Positions 26,947 through 63,464 of a DNA stretch of 64,000 nucleotides are shown in pieces. Where the stretch lies: NCBI GenBank assembly GCA_014871385.1, contig CM026426.1, positions 98,048,861 to 98,112,860 on the forward strand, read 5' to 3'. The DNA is from Ceratodon purpureus. Its lineage: Eukaryota > Streptophyta > Bryopsida > Pseudoditrichales > Ditrichaceae. The notes beneath the pieces were generated by a model that was given only the letters and a program-made list of their open reading frames with translations, was not told where the DNA came from and searched no databases. Position numbers and translations under genes: made by a program. Positions within the stretch are counted from its first letter, which is position 1. Each line of letters starts with the position of its first letter.

Positions 26947-27387
26947 CATTAGGGGAAAAATCAGGTCTCCTATAGGCCTTGTAAGACAGCCCGGATTAGG
27001 TGAGCTTCCTGCCCGCTGACACTTCTCTTCAAAATCTCATTGGTCGATATCCTGCCCGCTGACAACAAAATTCGCCCTGCTGACAACAGGATTCGCTGAC
27101 AATAGGATCCGCTGACAACAGGATCCGGTACTGTCCAATGGGGTGACAGCAGTGGGCACACGGTCGGTGACACTGTCATTACTGCTTGTATTGTCCAATA
27201 GGGGGGTGGGGTGGGGAAGGGAAGCGATTGGCTAGACCCCCCAAATGCCAATTGCTGGCACTGCTGGCAGCATTTGGCGACCTGCTGGCATAGTTGGTGC
27301 CAGCAGGTAAAGTGCACGGGCATGGCAAAAATTCATGCACTAAAAACATGGAAAAGGCCCATAGGAGACCCCAATCTTCTCCTAATG
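26947..27387. mobile_element. MITE-like element, 441 bp, family B, copy 1
   Basis: Termini CATTAGGGGAAAAATCAGGT on the left and the complement of it on the right (TCTTCTCCTAATG), with GTCTCCTATAGGCC / GGCCCATAGGAGAC paired inside. The interior has short tandem CGCTGACAACAGGAT-like repeats and CTGCTGGCA repeats. Nearly the same sequence is found at 63026-63464. Open frames inside are incidental. Confidence 0.8.
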
Positions 27388-39401: not shown

Positions 39402-42400
39402 TCATAATCTTTGGGTAACTTCAGAAATGGAACCCCGTTCCAGAAGCTCAGTGAGAACCATTCGCATCTTCTCCAATGAAATAGGCTTTGTAATGACTCC
39501 GTCCATGCCAAGGCGAAGACACTTCTCGTGGGTCTGGCGATCAGTGTTAGCTGTAAGAGCAACAAGAAGTGGCCGCTCACGACGTCCTAATCTTTGATTA
39601 ATTTGAATAGCAACTTCGTATCCATCCATGTCTGGCATGCACACATCAAGTAGCAGCACGGTAAACGCTTGACTTCGCTGTGAAAGCATTTGCAGACACT
39701 CCCGTCCGGATGACGCCAAGGTTACTTCACACCCTAGTCGTATGAGCAGTCCTCGAGTTACCATCCTGTTCACGCTGATCAACAGTCAAAGAACCAAGTT
39801 TTGTCAGATACAGAGCCACGACAAACAACACTAATCTTCCGTGAGCCTTCTGCTTTCACCTAGGGATTGTAAAATCTAACATAACCCAAACCAATTCTAG
39901 ATGTGCTCACCCATTGTCATCTGTGACAAGGACTCGGACCCCTGAAAAATCTCGACACCCACTGCCGCTTGATTGTGAGCTAGGCGCGATCTGGATGGAG
40001 TGATGACTCGGAGGCTCAGGAACATTTAGCTTCACTACAAAGGTTACAATTGATCCTTTTCCAACCCCTTCGCTTTCAATCCATATATGACCATCCATAA
40101 GGTTAACAAATCTGTACCGCCACAGCCACTTTGTGAGACACATGAGTAGTTGACGTTTCCAAGTCGCAAAAGAAAAGCAGTTGCTACAAACATGAAGCAT
40201 CATGTCCTCCGAATCATCCCAAAAACATGTCGAGGGCTTCAATTTCAGGCATACTAATGAAACAAGATCTTAATAGGGCACGATACAACAAAGCCTCAGC
40301 AGAATTTTCCTCTTAGCCATGGATGAACAAAACGAGACGTTAGCAGATGTATGTTGTCTCAAGTAAAAAGCCGAAACAAAATAGTGACATTCTTTCTGAC
40401 GAAAACGTCAAACCCACAGAGATACAGAAGATCCAGTCGGAAGTAGATGTCATAGGACGTCATTCCAAACTTCGAAATCAAAAGCTCCTGTAAACGTGGC
40501 AGCAGCAGAGAGAAACCGACGAGAGAGTACACCAGGATAAAATCAAGACTTTTGCTCCTGGGATTCACGCACTTCTGAAGAATAATGGAGCACCAAGCAA
40601 TATGCTAAAACCGGCGATACTGCCCGCTTCGCCATACAAGCAAGTGCCATCGTCCAGAAGCAATCAGATAAAGGAAAAAAACTCAGGAAAATGAAGCACA
40701 GAATGTGAAAAGTTACCTTTTGCAAATAGCTAATCCAAGCCCCGTCCCTCCATAATTTCTAGTTGTCGTGGAATCGGCTTGAACGAACTTGTTGAATAGC
40801 ATAGGGATGTCTTGTGGATTAAGACCCAAACCAGTATCCCGGACCTGAAAGACAGCCATATATGCCAATGACATTTTACAAATCCAGAAATTTGTTGATC
40901 TACCTCATCTGCATACAATATAGGAACCGCGTACTAAACCAGAAAAATGGTAATAAAGCAGACCAAATCAGGGAGATGAAATACCTGGACTCTGACATAA
41001 AAATGTTGATCTCCTGGGGTTGGTCGAAAATCTGGTTGGCGAGGATCACGCGGATACTCGGGTCTTTCCAGGCCTACAAATACGTTCACGATACCCTCCT
41101 TTGTAAATTTCACGGCATTTCCAACAACATTAAGGGCAGTCTGTAATAGCCGTTTGTCATCTCCAACTGCAGTATCAGGAACATCGGGCCCCATGGTCAA
41201 GTTTACTTGAAGTCTTTTCACGGATGCTATAGGTTTCACGAGGTTTAAAACCTGCCAGGTACAAACATTACTGTCAGGTCAGGTAGAATTAGGGAGATCA
41301 CGGAAACATCGAAGCAGAAACTAACTTTCTACACGTAGATCGTAATTGCAATACAGCATTCCACAACTTAATACAAGCATCAAGCAGATTAGGTGTTGCC
41401 GCATATACTATCTCCAACATATGCGTACCCGCAATAGTCGCTCTTTTGAACACTAAACAATTTTTATTTTTTTAAATTAATTTAAAATTTAAATTTAAAA
41501 ATAATTTATTTATATTTATATATTTTTTAAAACTACCAAGGAATTCTGCAGGTCAACTTTGTTCTACAACTAAAACAAGCTTAAAGTGATGAGCATATCG
41601 ATTCCTTCCCAACAGTTTCAATTGCAAGATCGGAATAAGATCCATATCTTTGTCAAGATTCCCCCACAAAAATAATCATAATGCCTTCGATCACAAAGCT
41701 TGATTTTTCTTAAAAAAGCCTACTCTTCGACATGCAAGTAGAATCCCAGAATGAAGCATCATACGATATCATTGAACAAAACACAAGTGGTTTTCAAGAA
41801 ATACCTCTTTGAAAACATCAGGGAGGTTGAACTGGCGGATATCAAGTTCCAAACTTCCATCTTCAAGTCGAGACAGGTCAAGCACATCATTTATCAATGT
41901 TGCCAATAGGTTGCTACTTTTAAGAACAGTCTCCACCATAGACCGCTGCTCAGGGGATAATTCGGTTTCTTGTAAAAGGGAAGAAAGAGCAATAATAGCA
42001 TGCATAGGTGTGCGCATCTCATGGTTCATCACAGCAAGGAAATCATTGCGGGCTCTAATAGCTGTCTCTGCTTCCTGCCGAGCATGTTCCAACGCTACAT
42101 TCTGTTCCATCAAAAGATCCCGAGCTCGCGTTGACTCCTCCAGAATTGATGCATGCGAAAGAGCCACAGCAACCTGCACATAATGGATAATATCACCACT
42201 TGGGACATTTTCCTAACACAAAAAAAACTGCACCAAAAACTCCTCATATCGTAATCACGACACTCATCAAGATGTCAATATATATATATATGAGACCAAA
42301 TAACAAACCTGATCAGCCACAACTTCCACTAGCTCCAACTCGTGAACATGCCACCTTCGCGCGCTGTCTGCAGGCAGCATCAACACCATCAATGCGTAGG

Positions 42401-43214
42401 GACGCGTCTTCCTATCAGGCCAATCACTAAAATGGAAGTTCGTGAACTGGTCGAGAAGTGGAACTCGAACTGCCACAACATCCCCGGTCATGTATTTCCC
42501 AAGACGGATTCGAGTAACACAAACTGGGCTGTTTGGAGAAATTATCACCGCACGGGGGCTACTAAACACTTGCTTGATAGTTGGATGATGTATGGACACA
42601 GTAACATGGAGAGGATCAGCTCGAAGGGCATTTTTTAGTTCTAGCTCTTGACCATCTGCCGTTGGCATCCACAGGGTACACTCCTCAAGAGAAAGTGTTT
42701 TGCCTAGTTCAATGAGAGTAGTATTCAATATCGTATGTCGATCTAGTGTGCTCCGAATCTCATGAGTCAGCATTCGGACATGACGACCTGTTTCCTCTTG
42801 AGTGCGTATCAACCCCATCTCACGGTCAAGTTCCGCCGCCTTTTTCTTCAAAAATAATTCTCGAGTCTTTACACTAAGGAGGTCTGGTATGATGTGCACA
42901 AGCATAAGGGCTGTGGCACACGAAACAACAGCAGTGAGAACCTTCGCTGTTGTGAGAACGACAGCCACTGTTCGAGAATGGCTACTGAAAGTCCACAACG
43001 ATATGAGATGCGTAGCTCCACAAAGCACAATAAAGGCTCCAAACTGAACAAGAACCCACCGATAAGGGAAGATGGATGACTTCTTCACGAAGTATATAAG
43101 CTCCAAGGGGATAGAGAAGTATGCCAATGCGATGAAAAAATCCGATATATACTGGTACCGCATAAGGAGGTCGTCTGGTGGCCATTGTGGCTCTACGCAG
43201 TTGCACGCCTCCAT
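39402..43214 (-). CDS. ETR1: Ethylene receptor, ETR1-type hybrid histidine kinase (six coding exons)
   Basis: Exons on minus: 43214-42309, 42173-41805, 41251-40985, 40844-40717, 40111-39911 and 39774-39402. All introns are GT-AG and the joined frame is 747 residues (Arabidopsis ETR1 is 738). The ATG at 43214 gives [13 protein letters not shown], the family start with Cys4 and Cys6 for the disulfide dimer. Three membrane helices follow. Cys65 and His69 (CGATH) are the copper/ethylene ligands. A GAF domain comes next, then the histidine kinase: H-box [15 protein letters not shown] with His353, N-box [20 protein letters not shown]-box [12 protein letters not shown], so all catalytic boxes are present (subfamily I). 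A receiver domain ends the protein with phospho-acceptor Asp667 in [14 protein letters not shown]. Ethylene binding in the ER membrane is known to switch such receptors off, relieving CTR1-mediated repression. First intron position (after VVADQ) matches land-plant ETR1. Paralogue identity (ETR1 versus ERS/EIN4) is set by the intact kinase plus receiver. Confidence 0.95.
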
Positions 43215-45166
43215 CGCTGCCAATTCCTCAAACAACTTCACTATCCTTCCTCAAAGTAGAGTACACAAAGGTGTAAATGCTTTGACAAATCACAGGGAAT
43301 GGCAGAGGGATCAAAATAAGAAGAATGTTGGCAAAGCGTGAGCATTGTCCAGGGATTTGATTATAGTAGGCTATATATTTAGCCTTACATGCCTTAAAAT
43401 ATATACAAGAAGCAATTCTCCCGGATTTCAAAGGGGCCAAAAGGAACATGGACTCCTGCACAGTGACAACCAACATTTGTCAACATTCTTCCTATTTTGA
43501 GCAGCTTCAAAATCGGCATCTCATTCGTTTTGCTCTCCTTTAATTCTTCAATCAGCGCAACTCAGAAAGTATGGGAAGACTAGTCGGAATAGTCCAACGA
43601 TCATCAAGGACAGTCACCATCAGGAAAGACACAGCAAAGTAGATTTACCACCGGGCAACATACTTTCTTGAAAGAAAAACAAAAACATTAAAGAGAAGGC
43701 ACAAAAAGCACGAGGTGAAAACAATGGACCGTTCAAGCTCAGTCAGATGACACATTCGATACATTCAGATAGACAATATGCGACTGGAGGACCTCTTAAT
43801 TGATTTCACTCTCAATGCTAGAGCCCGGTGAGCAATGCTATAGCCTTCAACGCCTGCATAAGCCGTGGCACCTGAAAAAATGTTTAACGAGGTCTTAACC
43901 TACGGTAACTATACAGCCATGTGACTTCTTCACCCCCAGGTTTGTGATAGCAAAACGTACATGGCAAAAGTGTGCAGTAACTTCTACCAAATACCGTGTA
44001 CCACTCTGCATAATACACTTCAAATTGCCTTTGACAAAAGCATTTGACAAAAGCATTGTATGTAAAGACCAACATATATGACACTTAAGCCATAAGATCG
44101 AAAACTCACGGAAGAATAGTCTTATAATTACGAACCCTGTGAATCAAGACAAGATTCCTAAATATTGCATAGACCTAGGATACTCTGCACATTGATGTAT
44201 TAAAACAGTGAAGTACTATTCCAGTTCGCTACGTCCCGCATCTCAAATCAGCGTCTCCACACTCACATCTGGAGGATTTAACTCCTGAAAGTAGTAGTTC
44301 CGTTCTAACCAAGTCAAAATCAAGAACGGCACTTAAAGAAGAAGACAGATGATGTGAACTCCAGAGAAAAATGGCCAAAGATAACTTCCGCTGGCCACTT
44401 CTCCCAACAAAGGAGGAAAAACGGCCGGGTTGATATTCTCAAGCCCTCTCCCAGATAAAGAATAGAATGCTTCTACGTGAGAATGAGAAATACAAAGCAT
44501 TTCACGCCTTCATGATGCGCGACAGAAATTATCAGTTACACTTTGACTATGAAACTGTTGGAAATTCGAGTATCTTCCCTCACTGATAGTGCTGTAACCT
44601 GGCTGATGGAGCCACGTAACCAGCGTTTGCAACAGAAAGTTTTCACAACCTAGGCCTCCCTCACTTTTTGACAAACATTCCAGTGTCCACAACGCACTCC
44701 TAATACGCGCGACAGCCTCCAGCAAAATACGGGAAACGCAAATTCACAACAGCCGTCCAAAACCTCCTCAAAGCTCAAGCCATATACCACTAAGACCACT
44801 CACGCCCTCGACACAACCTCCTTCCCCGAAACAAGACGCGTTCCACAAATCTTAAAGCCTGCCCGTACGCTTTCTCCAACACTAACCTCAAAACCAAACC
44901 CAGAATATATAAAAAAAACAAACAAACAAACAAACAGAAGAAGGACGCAAACTCCCGCAAACAAGCTCAAACCACAGCCACAAGAAACTCTCACATTCCA
45001 AAACCAAAACACCAAAACCCCCCACCTCAAAAAAACTCCCGACAGCTGCCGCTCAAACCTCGCCAAAAAGCACATAAATGTTCCTCAAATGCTCCTCAAA
45101 ATCATCAAGAACGAAACACCACGATTAAACAGTACTAAAAAACAATCGCAGAATCCCGTCACTTAC
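43215..45166. other. Probable 5' intron and upstream sequence of the ethylene receptor
   Basis: No other gene recognised. Likely intron between the non-coding first exon ending at 45167 and the coding exon 1. Confidence 0.4.
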
Positions 45167-49439: not shown

Positions 49440-49443
49440 TTAA
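49440..49443. repeat. TTAA target site duplication, left
   Basis: TTAA directly next to the left terminal repeat; TTAA is the obligate piggyBac target. Confidence 0.85.
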
Positions 49444-49459
49444 CCCCTTTAGGATGTTG
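49444..49459 (+). repeat. Left terminal inverted repeat of the piggyBac element
   Basis: CCCCTTTAGGATGTTG, perfect inverted match to 59527-59542. Confidence 0.9.
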
Positions 49460-50328
49460 TGTTTGGGGGATACGATGCTGCTGCGAGGCGTATTTTTGTA
49501 ATATCTGGAATACATGAGGATTTAGTATACATTGGGAATGGTGTTTCGGCGTCGGAAAATTACAGTAGATAGATGGGAAAGTGCTGAAGTCGATGGGAAA
49601 ATTGGAAGAGCATTATGAATTGTGCAAAAATTGTAGTAAATTGGAGAAGGAGAGGGGGTGCGAGAGGGTTGTCCGAGGTGGTCTGGAGCGCATACAGCCT
49701 AGGCGTCCGTAAGGAATCGAACCCAGGACGACTGTACACTCGGTGGACCACCGGGTAGTACAGGGTCGCACGCCGGAGCTGAACCGGCTATGACGGTTGC
49801 AGCTACTGTGCGTGTACTTCGAATAGACGGGCCAGCTAATCAGGTGACGATGTCGAAGGAAGTGGCCGGTATTGTCAGGATGTCCACTTCCCGCGACATC
49901 GTGTCAGAGTGTCCCCTTCCTGTGGCACTCCACTTCAACTGCCGGCGTCTTCAGTATGCCACAACCAAATTATACTCAGACTCTCTGAGGACGCGAACTG
50001 CCTGTAAGAGAAGTGATTTAGGGTGAAGACAAGCAATCATGTATACAAAGTCTTTAAATATTTACATCGAGGATAATTGTTTTCCAGTTCGAAAGACGTA
50101 AGGTAAGGAGGAAGTGTTCTGAGGACAAAATGAAACAGAGACGGCTCTTCCTAGAACAACCGCAACAGCTACCAAGGACTATGTTCGTAGGTCCAAAATC
50201 AGCGTAAGGCAGGTGCCTCCAACCATGCACACTGATGCACCCTGTCAATGGACTAAAGGAAGTCGTTGCTCTGAATGTCAACTATATCGGATCCAGTAAG
50301 AGTAAGTGATGTTCACAGCGCAATCCTC
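49460..50328. other. Left subterminal region of the piggyBac element
   Basis: No recognisable gene. It should contain the 3' untranslated region of the B3 gene. On minus it contains a tRNA-like B box GGTTCGATTCC (about 49717-49727), but the flanking arms do not pair. Confidence 0.45.
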
Positions 50329-51381
50329 TCACCCTCTCTTCGTCACCTTGAATTCAGCTCCGCGACTCTTCATGAAGAGGAGGGTATCTCCAAGCTTCAG
50401 GTTGTTCTTCAGGAGGAAATCAGGCCACCCCACAGTAAGATAGCAAAAAGTCTGCTTCTCCCCGAGGTGTATGGCGCTCATGACCTGGACTGAAGCAAGT
50501 GGTCCTGCCAATGTGTAACACACTCCGTCAAATTCAGCTTCGCCGACCTCCCTCCAGTAAGAAGTAGGTATATCCTGTTCACAAAAACAAAGTGGTGAGA
50601 TGAAAATACATGAAGACAACGACTGAGAAACATACAGAGGACGACACAAAGTACGGGAACCGAAGGTGTATACTACTTACAAGCCTGGTTGATTTCCCTG
50701 ACTTCGTGTGCGTTGCGCGCAAAGTCTTCTCAAATTGCGGACGGTAAACGATTCGAGGGCTTCTCTTTTTCTGCACACTGCGAGGAGAGCTGTCGACGAC
50801 AATCCCTGCCTGAGGCTGCTGGCGGCGGCTGGGTGCACCCTCGTACTGTGGCATGTTCACGTGAGGCTGCTCACGGTTTTTGTGAATGGTGACGGCTAAG
50901 GCCCGCTCATCAACCCACTCGAAGATGAGGAGGTCTCCGTCACCGATAGCATGATCCTCAAGGAACTTGTTCCAGCCGTCTCCGACGCTGAAAACATCAT
51001 CATCTCCGACTGGGTTGAACGTGTTCACCATCATTCGAATAGGCCACTCCTTCGGTTCAGTAATTGAAGTCAAAAGCACGCAGTCCTCTACCCCGGGCCA
51101 GCCTGTCTGCTCCCTGAACTGTGGTGGGATTTCCTGTTCACAGTCCGGGTTGGATAAACGCGTAAGCTCCGTCATCATCATGGATTGCAGAATTCGGCAC
51201 AGACTTAGTAGGAAATTCTGAAGGATACTGGGAACAAGAACTCCAGGGACAAGAATTGAAGGACGCGAGAGCTTACCAGCCCGAAGACGGGGTTCCGGGT
51301 GGAGATTGTGATATGGAAGTAGAAGGCACCAAGGAAATCGAGCTCGCGCAACAACTCCGAGTGCGACCTCTCCGCCATCAT
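50329..51381 (-). CDS. Two-domain B3 (REM-like) DNA-binding protein carried by the piggyBac element
   Basis: Three exons on minus, 51381-51277, 51133-50681 and 50574-50329, all GT-AG and all phase 0, give 267 residues without a stop. Start MMAERSHSELL is preceded by a possible leader acceptor (TTGCAG). First B3 domain, about residues 16-110: GAFYFHITISTRNP, IPPQFREQTGW, VGDGWNKFLEDHAIGDGDLL, IFEWVDERALAVTIHKN. This is the order beta-strand, IPxxF, GWxxFxxxxxLxxGDxLxF of plant B3/REM proteins. A linker with PSRRQQPQ and a basic KKRSPR follows. Second B3 domain, about 187-267: DIPTSYWREVG, LTVGWPDFLLKNNLKLGDTL, LFMKSRGAEFKV. B3 domains bind specific DNA in plants; REM family targets are mostly unknown. 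Whether this one binds host genes or the transposon ends is not known. Confidence 0.85.
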
Positions 51382-52497
51382 CTGCAAAACGTGAATGCCC
51401 AACCCGTAAGGTGTCAGTGCAAGAGGAGAGCGATAGCAGTTTGAAGGAGGTATGGTTCGCGGAGGACAAGAGTCGAGGTCGCCCAGAAAGCAAATGGAGA
51501 TGGACATGCACCGTGACTGCTGTATGCCTTCCAAGTTAGGGTAGTACGGTGCTCAGCAGTTCCTGAAGCATTGACACACCAAATCAAATCGTCGTCCTCT
51601 CATTAATTGCCGCCGAAGACACTAAGACGTCACTATCATCACCAGCACTGAGGCATTTTCTGCAGCATACGGGCATCAATTTCACCAGTCACCAGTCACC
51701 AGTCACCAGTCACAAGTGTCTGTGAACAGTGGGCAACTGATTGAACAGTGCTGAGCTTCGACGTCTACAATGGATCTCGTGGACCTGCGGCATCGTAGAT
51801 GTAAACTGCCCCATGAAGAGCAGGGGACAGTTTGCATGGTGTTTCGACAGAGCAAGCGAGTCCTCCACCTGGCGTCCAGCCTGAATCAAACACAACATGC
51901 GTCAATTTTGCGGAAAACGTAAATCCGTCTAAGACATGAATAAGCGAAGGTACTGAGCATGAGGGGGAGACCCCCTGGCGTCTCGCCGACACGTTGATTG
52001 CCCAGGACGGCCTTGCACAGGTGAAGTTGATGTCAATGAAAGATAATCGGTAGAGGTATAACCTGGCAAGGCCTGAGAGAAACAAGTTACGTCAGTCTGA
52101 TAATCTAAAACCCCGTATCTGAAAGAAGAAACAAACCTCAGAAGTCCGTTACAGAGTATAAGGTAAGCGGGATGCACTGCCCCTGTACACCACAAAAAAC
52201 ATACGCTCATGCAGGTTTAGAAGGTGCAGATGCAGACATAAGGAACAGAGCACAGAGAAACGTCAGCAACAAATCAAAGGCGGACTAGATTGTGTGAAAG
52301 TGAAACTGTATTCCAGAGATCCCTGAGAGTACACCCGCCATTCCCAAACGAAACTAATCCCGTATACAGGCTATGGAGACTACTCCAGGCGCTATGTGCA
52401 TGCCCCTTCACGTGCACTGTCCTATGGTATGTGCTAAATACATTCCTCTCAAAAAATGTGAACTCCCAACCAGGCGCGAATGAGAGGACACTCTACG
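51382..52497. other. Upstream region of the B3 gene
   Basis: No independent gene recognised; probably leader exons and promoter. A CACCAGT tandem repeat lies at 51683-51712. Confidence 0.4.
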
Positions 52498-53007
52498 TCA
52501 CTGTGAACACTGGAAAGGACACTCTACATCGTAGCATTCGTCATCGTTTTCTTCGCCTGAGCTTGACTTGGACTCTGAATCGCTCTGAACAGTTGAGGGA
52601 GGTTGGCCTAAGCAACTGTTGGCGACCCCCTCTGCTGCGCCGTCGCCCTGATGAGGTGCAGAGGGGTCTTGCAGCACTGGTGGCGGGAGGCCATCCTCGT
52701 GAACGCGGATGGGCAGCATGGCTTCGTCTGCAACGTTGTCGCAGACGTGAGGATCCTGCGCAGGAGTAAGCGGGACGTCAGTGTGAACTACACCGGTGAG
52801 GCGCACGATGTCCTCGTATTGCCGGGTGCATTGCGGTGTCCAGTCGAAGACGAAATCGTCATCGAGGAGATGTAGAATGGCGTCGTATGATGGAAGCTCA
52901 GTCTCCCAGTTGACTTCCTCATACAACTGCAGACGACGAAGCCATGAACGGACCCCCTCCACGTCGCAGGGTCCACCTCGAGAAATCGCACTAAAACCGC
53001 GCTTCAT
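52498..53007 (-). CDS. Unrecognised acidic ORF inside the piggyBac element
   Basis: ATG at 53007, directly after a good acceptor (TTCTCGCAG), opens 169 codons. The N-terminal half has a helical, charged section (VEGVRSWLRRLQLYEEVNWE, SYDAILHLLDDDFVFDW, RQYEDIVRLTGV) and the C-terminal half is acidic and Ser-rich (SESKSSSGEENDDE). No known domain recognised. It is on the same strand as the transposase and B3 gene and lies between them. The acceptor suggests an upstream non-coding exon or that this is an internal exon of a longer transcript. An accessory role in transposition is possible but only inferred from position. Confidence 0.5.
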   Translation of the reverse strand: MKRGFSAISRGGPCDVEGVRSWLRRLQLYEEVNWETELPSYDAILHLLDDDFVFDWTPQCTRQYEDIVRLTGVVHTDVPLTPAQDPHVCDNVADEAMLPIRVHEDGLPPPVLQDPSAPHQGDGAAEGVANSCLGQPPSTVQSDSESKSSSGEENDDECYDVECPFQCSQ

Positions 53008-54061
53008 GCTGCGAGAACGAAATGTAAATACCACTTATATCTACCGCAGCACTAACAGCACTAACAGAATCCCAAAAGCGGAGATGAACTTGAAGTCACT
53101 CAGAGAAGGAGAATGGTACGTGGAAAGTTTCCTCTTCTCATTTAAGGCCGACCTCATGCGTCGAGGGCGTCCCCTCCTGACGAGTGCGCCCAAATGTATA
53201 CGGTCAGAAACGCACATGTACAGAGAGTGTGGACAGCAGAGGACAGTAAGAGAAAGGGAATCGCTGTGAAGATCTCCCCCGCTGACGACAACGAATGGAC
53301 GGAGATGATATCCAAAGTCAAAAGCACGTGTAGAATTGTGGAGGATGAGACTTACTCTCACATCGACGTGATCAGCCCGAGCGTAGCATGTCCGTTGACA
53401 AGGAGATGGAGCGTGACGGCAGTAAGGAAATCCAGGTATCACTTCATAAGGTGCGGCCCTCCGAGAGGGGCAGAAGACAAGTACGTCTACAGCCATAATA
53501 AAATGAACGGAATAGTTGACAAATCCCACATGCTCCTTATGCAGCCAAGCATCCTGCACGTACAAAGCAAATCCGTTAGATCACATTGTCTGCCGTTAAG
53601 ATGTTCACCTAGTACGGTGACGTTAACGTCAGAACCGCAGGGATATGAGGTGCGACTTAGGAAAACGAAGTTATGGCCTGGCTCAAAGCATTTTGTTCAA
53701 GCCCCCCTCTGCAGCAAAGTTTGAACAGAAACAATGAAGCCTCCGTAGAAAGATCCTCCTACAAACATATCAGCCATGTCCAAGAAATTAGAGTATTCAA
53801 CTCCACAGATGGTCGCCTACATGCAGCAACTTAGAGAATGTGCCAGGACTGCGGTGCGGGAGTAATCAGGTGCGACTCAGCATTTACAGGGAAAGTTAAG
53901 TGTTTCAGAGTTAAAATCCAGCCTGAATTCCACAGATGGCAGTCAATAGTCATGAGGGCATCATCACGTCTCAATGTCCAATCCTACGAATACAAAAGGT
54001 AGCAAATTGTCATAAAAAATTCCAGCATAGAAGGGTATGCTCTGAACAGAGGACCCGTGCT
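53008..54061. other. Non-coding or intronic DNA in the piggyBac element
   Basis: Open frames on both strands near 53041-53724 do not look like known proteins; likely intron or leader of the acidic ORF. Confidence 0.4.
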
Positions 54062-54267
54062 TCATGCCGGAATGGGAACACCAAAACCGCGCTTGATGCC
54101 GAAATGGGAATCAGCATGTCTGCCGTTGCTGACTTGGACGGTGCACTTCAGAGGGACCGACGTCGATGCTGAGGAGCTGCTGCCGACCCGGCATTGGAGG
54201 ACGCTCGGTCGAACGCCATGTTGGCCGCCCAATTCGCCCATGTCCAGGTACGCTCGCCAGTCCGCTC
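54062..54267 (-). other. Candidate alternative last exon of the piggyBac transposase
   Basis: A GT donor at 54316/54315, seven bases before the stop, and an AG acceptor at 54269-54268 would remove 48 bases. The frame would then continue for about 68 more codons (ADWRAYLDMGELGGQHG) to a stop at 54062. The intron would be very short, so this may be chance. Confidence 0.25.
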
Positions 54268-54307
54268 CTGGAAAACACAAGAGTAATATTTACGGAGTCA
54301 GTGCATT

Positions 54308-57300
54308 TCAAATACGCTCGTTCAGAACCGCGTGATGGTCGTAGTAGCAGCGTTCTCGACACATCCATGCATGCCCACAGGCAGGGCAGTACCACCGCTG
54401 TCTATGACCGCACAACACACACTTCCTCTTCAGCGAGGAGCGGAAGTGGGCGTGGGTAACTTGATCAACCCCGCCTGCTGGTCCGCGGTGTCTTCGAAGA
54501 GGACGCCGGTTCTTCAGTGCTAACTCGATAAGGTGCCGGCCGACAGCAATTTTGAATCCAAGGTGAGTCCCACAGCGAAGGCCGACCTCCTCCATCTCCT
54601 TCACGTATGTCACATACGCGTTAACCATTGACTGGTCGACAACGAAGTGAAACAATTTGATCCACCATTTGTGACAACGCAGCTGCGAGGAGTAATTTCC
54701 TCGCAGCTGATCAGTCACATCGACCCCTCGCATGTACTCCGTATATTGGAGGTGCATCGAGGAAGATGGTACCCTCAATTGGCCTCGCATCCCAGGAATG
54801 CGACGCAGCACACTGACGTCCGGAGCCCAGGGCGGTGCGGCGGTGGAAAGCAATGTCACCAGCTTGGAGTCTTGCCAGGACACTACCCCAATCTGTCGGT
54901 GAACGTGGATCCGCATCAGCATTGACCCTCTGATGTCGGGATTGGAGCCTCGGTACAGACCACCGGGAAGATTTTTCGAGTACCTTCGCACGGTGCCAGT
55001 GGTCCAGATGCCCTGCACCATGAGAGTGTGAAATAAATTCACACTAGCAAAGAGGTTATCTACAACAAGGCAATGACCTCGGTGGTGTAAACCAGCCATC
55101 ATCCGCTGAACCACATGATGCCCCAGCCCGTGTTCACCTAGTCCGGTGCCCTCACCAAAATATACTTCTATCCTCCAAACGAACCTGCTTTTCGAACTAG
55201 CAAGCATCCACAGCTTGATGCCAAAACGAACAGGTTTGTTTTTCATAAATTGCCTAATGAAACAATACCTCCCCTTATAAGGTATTACACACTCATCTAC
55301 AGTAATCTCTCTTTCCAGGTTATAGATACCTTCAGAGACAGTAGAGAACATGTCCAAGAGCCACCTTGTCTTTGCTATGCGGTCAAAGCCAGGCTGCTTC
55401 TCGTCTCGAACGACGTGGGCATTGTCAACAAGGTGCAGGCACCGGAGGATCTGCTCCCAGCGAGACAACGACATCAATTTAGATATCAGGTTACAGTAGA
55501 TGAAGGGCTCTCCCCGCATCCAGTAGTGCCTTTTGCTTGGCAATTTTTTGCATCCCATGAGGATGCAAATGCCAAGCCAGGCACGAATGTCGCTTCGATC
55601 TACATCCTTCCAGGTACTTCCTCCCTTTGTGCGAGGGGTTTCGTCAGGTTGACACGGGAGATCAGGAGCCCGTGCATACCGATTTGTCTCGACAACAATC
55701 CTGTCAAGAGTGTTGTCGCTCCAGTACTGGTTGAAGACGCGTTCTGGCCTCGGCACCCCACCTGCTGCTGGCCCCTTCAACCCTGGCAGTGGTCCGGTGA
55801 AATTGTCCCGGGTGCGAACAAAGTCCACACTCGCCGAGCTCCACGACGACTTCCTGTAGTGTTGAGCAAGCTGAGCCATGCTCAAGTGGACTGGTGCGAA
55901 TGCCTCCGGTTGCATGCACCATGCATCTAGCCTGTCAGCCACACCACGCTCATCATCCCCGTCGTCCTCATCGAAGTCCGAGCCTCCACTGTCCTGCATG
56001 TCGTCCCAGTCCGGAATCCACTCCATATCGCTCGAATCTCCTCTCCCTTTCTTGCCTCCGGCTCCACAGACCAGATCTTCGTCATCCTGATCTTCGTCAT
56101 CCTGATCTTCGTTGACAACTGCCTTCTCAGTATACAACATGTACTGGGGAAGTGAAGTACGTACCTGCGGAAAAGTCATTCGCGCCGTCGAATCCTGAGT
56201 TCCGTCTGGTCCCTCCACGTCCGACGGAATATCGTAGTCGCGGATTGTTTCCTCTCCCAGTACGCATTCCAGTACCTCCCGGCCCTTTTTGTGTCGCCTA
56301 CGTCTGCCCTTCCGGGGATTCTCCGCAATGTGTTCAGTTTCCCCCGCGAGGTCGTCTTCCCCCCCGTCATCGCTCTCTGCCCCACCGCAATAATCCCCCA
56401 CCAGTGGCCCGTATCTCGGTTGGACATCGTTTGGTGGAGGCACCGCATTATCTGCCGGGGGGAAGTTCTGCTTACGCTTCTCCCAGCCATATCCGTGGCC
56501 CCCCTCACTGCCGATTGCCCTAACCTCCGGCCCTGTTGCTGCTCTGACATCCTTCTCCTCGAAGTGCCTCTCCATGTTGTACCCTCCAAGGTCGACAAGG
56601 ACCATCTTCTTCCCTGTCCGCAGGTTCACCCCCTCTCCGATTATGTCTCCCTGGGTCCAGGAGGGGGTGTACCCGGTGTGAAAAGAGCTGTCTGATAGGA
56701 ATCGGTTTGGAACTAAGACCGCCCACCCAGCTCTTGCTCCACTCCAGTCCGTGTACAGCCCTTGTAGATGCGTCGGCATCTCCGTTGCCGAATGTGGAAG
56801 CGGATCCTCTAGAGTCCCCCCCGGATGAGTAGCCTCAAAGCCTCGTGCTTGGCGAATGGGCTCATGATTCTGCCAAGCGAAGGCTCTGTACACGTTGTCG
56901 CAGAGGTTTAGGTTCACCGTGTCCATGCTCCCTGGGGTAATCTGTGACTCCGGCGCGGTGATGTCCATTTCTTCATCCTCCTCCCCGTCCGGGATATCGC
57001 CAATGACGTCCTCAATGACCCTGTCGTTCTGTCTCTGCCGCGTGTATTCTTGTGCCAAATTCCTCCTGGCCCTGGTCATCACTCCTCCTGTTTCGTTTGG
57101 CTCCACTGCTGTAGGTGCCCACACTGTTGGCTTCCTCGACTTCTTCGCCTTCCCCTTCCCCTTCTGCTCCCGGGAAAATCTTCCGTTCCTCCCTAACCCT
57201 GCATCAATCCCACATCTTCCTCAATTAGCCTTCACAGTGCAATGTCCTCCAGAAGATTTAAATATCAACAAACAGTCATAAGAATTGAACCCGAATGAGT

Positions 57301-58148
57301 CAATACCAAAGAGAGTAGCCACAGAAATCACGCAGCCCTGAACACCACAGAATCCGACCCCAACACCCACTCCAATATGCGCTATGACAAAACAGAGGCA
57401 ACGCAAGAACACTTCAGCAAACCACACCTCCAAAGGCCCACAATCCTCATCACGAAATATAAAATAAACAGCTCCCGGCCCGAGAGAGAAGAACAAAACA
57501 GTCACACCTCCTCCCTAACCGAATGTCCATTCACATGTGGATCAATCAGTCCAACTAGAACCACACATCCTCTTATCCCATTGAAAGATGCATAGCGCAC
57601 AATTCAAGCGGGAGGCACTTACGCCAATACGCTCAGACCAACATCGTCCGAAACAAATAGGTCATTCCCTAAGCATCGCAGAATGTGCAACGTACCTTTC
57701 TCGACGGTGGCAGAATCCGGTTGCGGTGGCCCGGTGCCGTTTCGGATTTCGCTCAGTGGCATCAGTGTCTGGGTCTGCGTGACCGTCACGGGAGTGGCAC
57801 CGCTCTTCCTTGGAGTGTACTTCCGAGGCGTCCTCTGTGTGAGTTGAGTCCCCACAACCTCCACCACCGCTCCTGGTGTGTCGGTTGCCGCTATGTTCTC
57901 CACAAGTAGGGGCAGCGATGAAGGGGGGGTCATCGCTAACTGTGCAATCCGTAGAGCCTCCCGCTCCGCTACCTGTATGCAACATATGAGAATGATAGCA
58001 CATGTCCCGCACCGACCACCATCATCATGACAATATTCTCAATTCACATTCCGTATGGATAAACGCTTACCGCTTTCTTGGAGCGTGACGGACGCTTCCT
58101 CTTTTCCTTCGCTGGAGGTGCGGTGGATGTCCTCCCCGCATCGTCCAT
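54308..58148 (-). CDS. piggyBac-type transposase, intact (three exons)
   Basis: Exons on minus 58148-58071, 57972-57696 and 57198-54308 join in frame to 1081 residues. The start is MDDAGRTSTAPPAKEKRKRP, a basic N-terminus. The first ~620 residues are long, acidic and low-complexity (including an 18-bp tandem repeat coding DEDQDD at about 56075-56110). The DDE core follows: FNQYWSDNTLDRIVVETNRYA, RSDIRAWLGICILMGCKKLP, ITVDECVIPYKGR (Asp753), CLVVDNLFASVNLF (Asp832), YMRGVDVTDQLRGNY (Asp945 and Asp948). These correspond to the catalytic and essential aspartates of piggyBac. A C-terminal cysteine-rich domain (CVLCG, YCPACGHAWMCRERC, DHH; about 1045-1074) is the end-binding domain. Typical piggyBac transposases are about 600 residues, so the N-terminal extension is large. 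No stops or shifts: the enzyme is probably functional. It excises and inserts the element at TTAA. Confidence 0.93.
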
Positions 58149-58189
58149 CTGCACGACATCGGGAGTGCAACATCTCCTTAGAAGTAGGA

Positions 58190-58989
58190 AAACCAGGTGC
58201 AAATGAAGACATTGAAAATAACCGATGCACATGACTCCCACATTCAATTTCAGGTTGCTCTGTTTGTCAATGCAATCCAGAGCGACCGCAGAGGTTGTCC
58301 TTCTCGTGACCCTAACATTTCGATGCACCAAAACAGAGGAATTCGCGAGGGCACTGACTACGAATCTGGCTGCCCTAGCTTCTTGAATTGCACAATTAAC
58401 ATTAGAGACAGAGTCCACTACAGTAAAAGAAAGGGAATTTGGAGTGTTCACCGTGAGTGTGACTGCCTGCGTGCCCCGCGCGGACGTCATTGCTGCGGCC
58501 TGGCTGTCGATAGTCCCCGTCCTCGGGATTGCATGGGCCCCGTCCGTTGCCTTCGACCTTGCACGGGCAAGTTGCTTCATTGTCTTCACCGGCACTCGGA
58601 TAGATGTGCGTGCGCAGGATATTGCTGACCAACGTAGGAAACGGCGTCCTCTCGCACCAGCCTAACAACCTTGCCGCGTGCCTGTACCACAGGTACCTAT
58701 TGTGCTCCGCAACTCCGAAATTCCGTCGACTCTTCCAAGACGCAGGCCGTCTTTGCTCGAGGAGGTACTTGCTGTCGCACAATTGGATTGCTTGCCCGGC
58801 ACTCCCCTCGGACAGCCCTTGCTGAAGAAACCAGGTATGCAAATCTCTCCTACACGCCGTAAGTCCTTGAACCATATCCAACCCCTCCACTGTGCAACTT
58901 CTGCGGGAACTGAATTCGGTGTTCATCTGCTGCTTAGGGACTCGTGAACTCATACAACAATTGAACCCCCTCCCTCCTTGCCCCGCCAT
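58190..58989 (-). CDS. Unrecognised ORF at the right end of the piggyBac element
   Basis: ATG at 58989 opens 195 codons. The central part is protein-like with Trp and aromatic residues (RRDLHTWFLQQGLSEGSAGQ, RNFGVAEHNRYLWYRHAARL, PTLVSNILRTHIYPS). Possible splicing (donor after 58452, acceptor before 58381) would continue the frame through EARAARFVVSALANSS to about 58223. It lies just upstream of the transposase on the same strand, so it may be the first exons of a longer transposase transcript or a separate accessory gene. No domain recognised. Confidence 0.45.
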
Positions 58990-59526
58990 TTGTGAAGCAC
59001 TGAGATGGAAATTTTCCCCCCCTTTCCTCTCAGAATTGAGTACTAAAACCTAATGAAATGTTGCACTCCTCTAAGACTGCGCTTCCGCACTACGACAACG
59101 TTGGTGGAGCGTAAGGAGAATAGATAGAAACAGTATAAAAACCTTCACACAATGACCACTCCGTTGCATGCGACATCGTGGACCAGAATCCGAGGCGCTC
59201 CCCCTCCAGGTCGCGCCTCAAAACCTAACTGCCACATACCGGCCCAGCCGGTTCACCTACGGCCGATGTGGACCGTCTCTGACATACTTCGTACACGTAA
59301 CTGACGACGTCCTTCTTACATCGTAGCCCCTCCCTTACCCCAGAATACGTAGAAATGCTACTTCGGCCAGAGTTTCCCACTACATCGTTACTCTGAAAAT
59401 TATGTAAAAATCAGAAATAGTCTCCCCAACCCCATGCCAACACATCTCAAGTTCATCGTATCACCAAATACCAGAGAATTCATTCGGAAATCAAAGAATA
59501 CATAACTTCGAGGCCACCCCTGGCCC
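58990..59526. other. Right subterminal region of the piggyBac element
   Basis: No gene. It should contain the promoter of the minus-strand genes; no strong TATA box stands out. Confidence 0.45.
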
Positions 59527-59542
59527 CAACATCCTAAAGGGG
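59527..59542 (-). repeat. Right terminal inverted repeat of the piggyBac element
   Basis: CAACATCCTAAAGGGG on plus, perfect inverted match to 49444-49459. Confidence 0.9.
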
Positions 59543-59546
59543 TTAA
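59543..59546. repeat. TTAA target site duplication, right
   Basis: TTAA directly next to the right terminal repeat. Confidence 0.85.
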
Positions 59547-63025: not shown

Positions 63026-63464
63026 CATTAGGAGAAAAATTGGGTCTCTAGAAGGCCTTGTAAGACAACCCGGATTAGGTGAGCTTCCTGCCCGCTGACA
63101 CTTCTGTGCGAAATCTCATTGGTGGATATCCTGCCCGCTGACAACAAAATTTGCCCCGCTGACAACAGGATTCGCCCCGCTGACAACAGGATCCAGTACT
63201 GTTCAATGGGGTGACAGCAGTGGGCACACGCTCGGTGACAATGTCATTACTGCTTGTATTGTCCAATGGGGGGTGGGGTGTTGTGGGGTGGGGAAGGGAA
63301 GCGATTGGCTGGACCCCCCAAATACCAACTGCTGGCACTGCTGGCAGCATTTGGCGACCTGATGGCACCAGTGGTGCCAGCAGGTAAAGTGCACGGGCAT
63401 GGCAAAAATTCAGGCACGGAAAACCATGAAAAGGCCTTCTGGAGACCTTAAACTTCCCGTAATG
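63026..63464. mobile_element. MITE-like element, 439 bp, family B, copy 2
   Basis: Nearly identical to 26947-27387 over the whole length, including the CCTGCCCGCTGACA repeats and GTGGGGAAGGGAAGCGATTG. Ends CATTAGGAGAAAAATTGGGT and CTTCCCGTAATG. It interrupts decayed minus-strand coding sequence (NGGTNTEERP on the right, and the block from 62985 on the left). Confidence 0.8.

Follow-up and report, generated by a model that had tools for sequence, protein, structure and literature searches.

A piggyBac transposon in the genome of Ceratodon purpureus encodes, inside the same terminal repeats as its transposase, a protein with two B3 domains. The element lies in a stretch of 64,000 base pairs (bp) that was analysed as a whole and is referred to below as the window (C6:98048861-98112860; contig CM026426.1 of assembly GCA_014871385.1). 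The window element is structurally complete, its B3 gene recurs beside diverged transposases across the assembly, the two genes have been inherited together, and the B3 gene has been kept by purifying selection. The window element probably belongs to an old group of large piggyBac elements whose standard second gene encodes a two-domain B3 protein, which would bind the DNA of its own element.

Structure of the window element

Two exactly matching 16-bp ends, flanked by TTAA at 49440-49443 and 59543-59546, delimit the element. Its features, with window positions, strand and, for proteins, length in amino acids (aa), are as follows.

49440..59546, no strand: whole piggyBac element including both TTAA target-site copies, 10,107 bp
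49444..49459, plus: left terminal inverted repeat CCCCTTTAGGATGTTG, the B3-side end
50329..50574, minus: B3 exon 3, remainder of B3 domain 2 and stop
50681..51133, minus: B3 exon 2, remainder of B3 domain 1, variable linker and beginning of B3 domain 2
51277..51381, minus: B3 exon 1 (MMAERSHS...VFGL), with the start codon and the beginning of B3 domain 1
51682..51717, no strand: five 7-bp tandem units (TCACCAG), about 0.3 kilobases (kb) upstream of the B3 start codon
52498..53007, minus: open reading frame (ORF) C, 169 aa beginning with MKR, its N-terminal part conserved and its tail acidic and serine-rich
54044..54115, minus: two 32-bp tandem units directly 3' of the transposase exon
54308..57220, minus: main transposase exon, 970 aa from stop to stop, DDE core and cysteine-rich tail
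57671..58116, minus: exon B region, basic and conserved coding sequence on the 5' side, with splice sites judged by eye
58402..59049, minus: exon A, conserved N-terminal domain (...RYLWYRHAARLLGW...), placed by comparison with the C3 element
59527..59542, minus: right terminal inverted repeat, perfect, on the exon A side

Comparison with the C3 element, which was read end to end, gives the minus-strand order 5' to 3' as exon A, exon B, main transposase exon, ORF C and B3 gene. One end of the C3 element carries a single mismatch, and its B3 gene lies between both ends, as in the window element. Both ends were also read in the element at C1:7238294-7250268 (one with two mismatches), again with B3 between them. 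The assembly has 41 occurrences of the end sequence CCCCTTTAGGATGTTG, 19 of them forward and 22 reverse, versus one of a reversed control, and TTAA flanks the end in all eight of the end loci L001-L008. Members of piggyBac vary at the fourth base of the CCYT motif that begins their ends. The perfect 16-bp repeat falls inside the range of 12-19 bp that is given for piggyBac terminal inverted repeats, along with the CCYT start, in PMC10175614; the ends here start with CCCC, which matches CCYT at bases 1-3 and has C instead of T at base 4. An earlier note, made from the letters of the window, had described one complete piggyBac element with the transposase and the B3 gene inside the same perfect ends, and this description holds.

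The main transposase exon is a single open frame that matches Pfam DDE_Tnp_1_7 (PF13843) with an expectation value (E) of 7.4e-69 and aligns to piggyBat (9c0f, E 5.9e-30) and piggyBac (6x67, E 2.5e-20). Asp 642, 721 and 834, which we take to be the catalytic three, align with the piggyBat aspartates and are invariant across the 20 members compared, a count that leaves out the partial transposase of L050. Of 30 transposase loci, 28 show the pattern of the cysteine-rich tail, the window copy among them. The uninterrupted transposase with piggyBac aspartates and cysteine-rich tail is thereby confirmed. Conservation shared with the C3 element extends past this exon to about position 54011.

Upstream of the transposase exon, exon B is probably spliced to it, and exon A may be either a 5' exon or a separate gene. 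An exon A match lies upstream in 46 of the 47 transposase loci scored, and the exon A domain, with its RYLWYRHAARLLGW core, has matches at 150 scored places, the best 150 of 293 candidates. It gave no Pfam match above cut-off (window exon A, best E 0.37) and no Protein Data Bank (PDB) profile match at E of 1 or below. Tandem repeats of 66, 211 or 277 bp occupy the exon B region of L021, L022 and L034-L038, and by eye some of them resemble repeated basic AT-hook-like coding units. ORF C likewise had no Pfam match above cut-off and nothing in the PDB profiles at E of 1 or below; for relatives of ORF C and exon A the best Pfam E was 0.23, none being above cut-off. In 19 of the 47 scored transposases a match to ORF C follows downstream on the same strand at a distance of up to 6 kb, with none upstream and none on the opposite strand. 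ORF C and the exon A domain were considered as possible homologues, and this was rejected (profile comparison probability 1.3%). Both are probably further parts of the same element machinery.

The B3 gene has GT-AG introns and exons whose lengths are all divisible by three, and it encodes 267 aa with no internal stop. The spliced protein matches Pfam B3 in two stretches at 56.8 bits (cut-off 30.1), B3 being the only domain that Pfam finds in it, while the separate exon frames reach 26.7 and 25.5 bits, each under the cut-off. This rise in score on splicing supports the exon joins, and the intact three-exon gene with two B3 domains that the earlier note had described stands. Counterparts of exon 1 were seen in L039 and L050; most other stretches read start past its position. 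In a profile search against solved structures, all ten sequences with E of 1 or below were plant B3 proteins, weakly matched; the best were At1g16640, presumably a B3 protein (E 0.0018), VRN1 (E 0.0038) and ARF (E 0.0039). The element protein is thus like At1g16640, VRN1, ARF, RAV1/TEM1 and NGA1 by profile match, but these are host genes of weak similarity and the subfamily of the element B3 is unsettled. Of nine presumed host B3 domains from the assembly, chosen by score, the closest match B3 domain 1 at 37-44% identity, the best with E 1.2e-9 on a scale set by only nine sequences. Single-sequence structure predictions were discarded, with a mean predicted local distance difference test (pLDDT) score of 39 for B3 exon 2 and 42 for ORF C.

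B3 genes beside transposases across the assembly

The assembly searched comprises 362,488,568 bases on 151 contigs, of which C6 has 110,524,308 bases. Each search scored its best candidates: 47 of 1195 for the transposase, 125 of 399 and 150 of 455 in two B3 searches, 150 of 293 for exon A, 150 of 350 for ORF C (of which 41 places with better E-values entered the ORF C linkage count above), 150 of 726 for Pfam B3 and 116 of 998 for the Pfam transposase.

In 36 of the 47 scored transposase loci, as counted from the two B3 lists, a B3 match follows downstream on the same strand at a distance of up to 12 kb; none lies upstream, and in two loci the downstream match is on the opposite strand. When the B3 loci were placed at random on 13 contigs, one of them with a rounded length, a mean of 0.19 and a maximum of 3 were linked in 1000 runs. 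One additional transposase locus has a B3 match from the Pfam B3 list, eight places of which were added solely for listing misses, and two of two apparent misses proved to contain B3 once read (both exons in L083, exon 2 only in L082). Together these loci place B3 downstream on the same strand in at least 39 of the 47, the window's included. Consistently, 81 of the 150 exon A loci are followed by a B3 match on the same strand at most 12 kb downstream, versus four on the opposite strand and none upstream. The earlier note had proposed checking whether other copies carry B3 at the same place, and they do. It had also taken the gene for cargo acquired by this element; that view fails, because B3 is common to at least 39 of 47 scored and much diverged relatives and is therefore not a recent cargo of the window element.

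The first B3 query yielded 26 elements, 22 of which were read and four of which are unread. In all 22, which were selected by their exon 2 match, exon 3 is present in order, and in 20 of them the B3 gene is open across the stretch read. A position kept in so many copies makes the B3 gene look like a working part of the element rather than random baggage.

Pairs of exact ends at most 20 kb apart number ten. Three of them contain a scored transposase, and all three also contain B3. Six, of 1.0-4.0 kb, have neither transposase nor B3 among the matches listed, one of these having an exon A match. The remaining copy (C11:12311538-12316819), of 5.3 kb, has exon A and both B3 exons but no transposase among the matches listed. 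Copies with the same ends and no B3 match, which the earlier note would have counted against its proposal, thus occur only among the short ones, and the pairs that hold a scored transposase all keep the gene.

The piggyBac load of the genome is very large: there are 998 first-look PF13843 candidates, and all 116 scored lie above the Pfam cut-off. Among these top 116, at least 10 have a listed B3 downstream, a count based on the first B3 list together with 43 of the second list's 150 places, and at least five have exon A upstream. Two distant copies (32% and 28% identical to the transposase of the window in the compared part), which were chosen for having no listed B3 and read on the downstream side, gave neither a B3 nor an ORF C match over about 5.8 and 4.7 kb. 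On the basis of these two selected copies, the B3 arrangement may be confined to one piggyBac group.

Selection, co-inheritance and age

The ratio of nonsynonymous to synonymous substitution rates (dN/dS) of B3, from a simple counting method, has a median of 0.20 over 29 non-independent pairs with dS of 0.05-1.5, and the B3 gene is under purifying selection. Distances between B3 proteins follow those between the transposases of the same elements (Mantel r 0.79, p 1e-4, n=21 elements). The two trees have 12 of 18 splits in common, versus a mean of 0.21 and a maximum of 3 in 2000 label shuffles. In these comparisons L044 was excluded from dN/dS, distances and trees for its frameshift, the stop codons of L047 were skipped, and exon 3 of L052 and L058 is cut by the stretch read.

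Sister copies about 99% identical over 5.7-5.8 kb lie on different contigs (L021/L022 and L034/L038), which indicates that the element family duplicated recently. For the window copy, which had been called recent and probably active, the picture is less favourable. Among the 47 scored transposases its nearest full-length relative is 72% identical and one partial copy is 73% identical, no sister at about 99% is found, and the sequence made by joining its flanks matches nothing in the assembly but those two flanks, so that no empty site is present there. A young copy would be compatible with the perfect ends and the open frames, which are no demonstration of activity; the description as recent and probably active goes beyond what these data show.

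Elsewhere in the window, an open frame at 42267-43250 on the minus strand matches an ethylene-receptor N-terminal domain and a GAF domain. Positions 26947-27387 and 63026-63464 contain two direct-repeat pairs of 150 and 182 bp, 91% and 87% identical, which lie 36 kb apart and in register.

Possible roles of the B3 protein and relation to known transposons

The B3 protein would bind DNA of its own element family. Once bound, it might activate or de-silence the element genes; alternatively, it might help the transposase to assemble on a long element. By analogy with other transposons, activation or anti-silencing of its own element is the role that we hold, tentatively, as the likeliest single one, and a function as a transposition cofactor is somewhat less likely; the probability left by these two falls to regulation of host genes or to target choice.

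Several observations weigh against an old group of elements with a self-directed B3 protein. Eight of the 47 scored transposase loci are unread, and B3 is not demonstrated there. The B3 gene of L044 is frameshifted and that of L047 has two stops. Outside the 29, the three pairs that are closest to each other (dS below 0.05) have B3 dN/dS of 0.16, 0.59 and 0.45 from few changes. Two of the 12 common splits have B3 support below 0.4, and in L056/L057 the transposase is nearest that of L059 and the B3 nearest that of L053, from which it follows that modules were exchanged at least once. B3 has also diverged at roughly double the rate of the transposase core (mean amino acid distance 0.52 versus 0.26), a difference that would fit a protein with a changing target, although it is not proof of one. 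As to binding sites, the known B3 target words CATGCA, TGTCTC, TGTCGG and CACCTG are not over-represented in the outer 700 bp of two elements; over whole elements CATGCA occurs 14 times versus 6.5 expected in the window copy and 9 times versus 5.7 in C3, partly in coding sequence. Finally, the functional case for B3 is built from genome sequence, and it is at this level that a DNA-binding partner, as the earlier note had proposed, is upheld as the likely role.

Repeated sequences in the elements were also considered as such. The 9-mer CGACATCGT occurs three times in the two 900-bp ends of the window element; it was dropped because random sequences reach that number in 10.8% of 500 runs and because it is absent from C3. 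Its 8-base core occurs four times in the window element and five times in C3, counts that have no control. In 14 of 30 loci (L009-L038), several of these 14 being sister copies, tandem repeats lie in the first kilobase 3' of the transposase exon, versus 0-2 of 30 in ten shuffled runs. They also occur in the 5' 1 kb of 7 of 30 loci and in the B3 3' stretches of 3 of 20, and the downstream units differ from element to element.

The same data bear on other explanations of the arrangement. The B3 protein might be a cargo directed at the host. It would then act on host genes, for instance regulators of reproduction or silencing, or influence which target sites are chosen, and it would persist because it promotes the spread of the element through the host. 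B3 is a plant transcription-factor fold, and the 37-44% identity between B3 domain 1 and the closest presumed host domains, which makes an old capture from the host plausible, speaks for this. We nevertheless consider a host-directed role unlikely, since B3 diverges together with its own transposase, as expected of a self-directed partner, even if a host target is still compatible with that pattern. A host B3 gene trapped once between piggyBac ends might instead have been copied along without function. The broken copies L044 and L047, the short copies with the same ends and no B3 match, and the dN/dS near 0.5 of two of the three closest pairs, which have few changes, are what such hitchhiking would produce; it is made very improbable by a gene that is open over the stretch read in 20 of 22 elements and keeps the same order in diverged ones, and it is weakened further by the median dN/dS of about 0.2 over 29 pairs with dS up to 1.5.

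An accident of neighbourhood or of assembly, in which a host B3 gene adjoins a transposase and the ends come from different elements, is hardly credible. Although 0.53 16-mers within three mismatches of the element end are expected by chance per window, both ends here are exact and carry TTAA, the arrangement recurs at many loci versus 0.19 expected, and the C3 and C1 elements were read at both ends. An old element group with its own B3 partner is the reading that we prefer. A broader version, which we regard as possible and put forward tentatively, would see in the large diverged piggyBac group a mobile system of several genes, among them an obligate plant-type B3 regulator, ORF C and a gene part for a new N-terminal domain. 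The B3 proteins of this system would recognise their own subfamilies in a VANC-like manner, and its elements would have been a source of many B3 loci in this genome.

If true, B3 as a fixed second gene would show a route by which transposons of the cut-and-paste kind can acquire a sequence-specific regulator of their own, and it offers a testable case of coevolution between element and silencing outside flowering plants. The piggyBac elements would also be a possible source of new B3 genes. Counts of the B3 family call for caution, as at least 82 of the 198 merged places found by the element B3 queries lie downstream of a transposase or exon A match. Literature combining piggyBac, 'B3 domain' and 'transposable element' was not found in a search outside which most subscription journals and repeat databases lay; for piggyBac and Ceratodon purpureus the sole match uses 'piggybacking' in another sense. 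PiggyBac is absent from the main text of the Physcomitrium transposon paper and appears in the repeat table of a fern genome paper.

Common piggyBac elements are known with one gene, and piggyBac is known mainly in this form and as a laboratory tool. The elements described here share with the piggyBac superfamily (piggyBat 9c0f, Trichoplusia piggyBac 6x67/6x68) the TTAA target, short perfect ends, a DDE core with three aligned aspartates and the cysteine-rich tail. They differ in their size of about 10-13 kb, their extra N-terminal exons, the B3 gene and ORF C. Genes beyond the transposase are also carried by Teratorn, a 180-kb fusion of piggyBac with a herpesvirus in fish; it differs as a viral fusion, and the available part of its description does not mention a plant regulator gene (PMC10175614).

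The B3 arrangement also has parallels in role outside piggyBac. En/Spm TnpA and the Harbinger Myb-like protein are element-encoded DNA-binding partners of a transposase; neither is known to be related to B3, and the two elements examined here showed no subterminal array. VANDAL elements belong to a different transposon superfamily, and their VANC is a different protein from B3. In the VANDAL elements of Arabidopsis, VANC is a sequence-specific DNA-binding second protein for which binding and anti-silencing have been shown (PMC5735166, PMC10398659). VANDAL elements are likewise plant DNA transposons that code for a second DNA-binding protein, and noncoding tandem repeats occur in some copies here too; binding and anti-silencing are demonstrated for VANC, whereas the element B3 is known from its sequence. 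On the best reading, the element B3 would resemble VANC, TnpA and the Harbinger Myb-like protein in role and not by descent.

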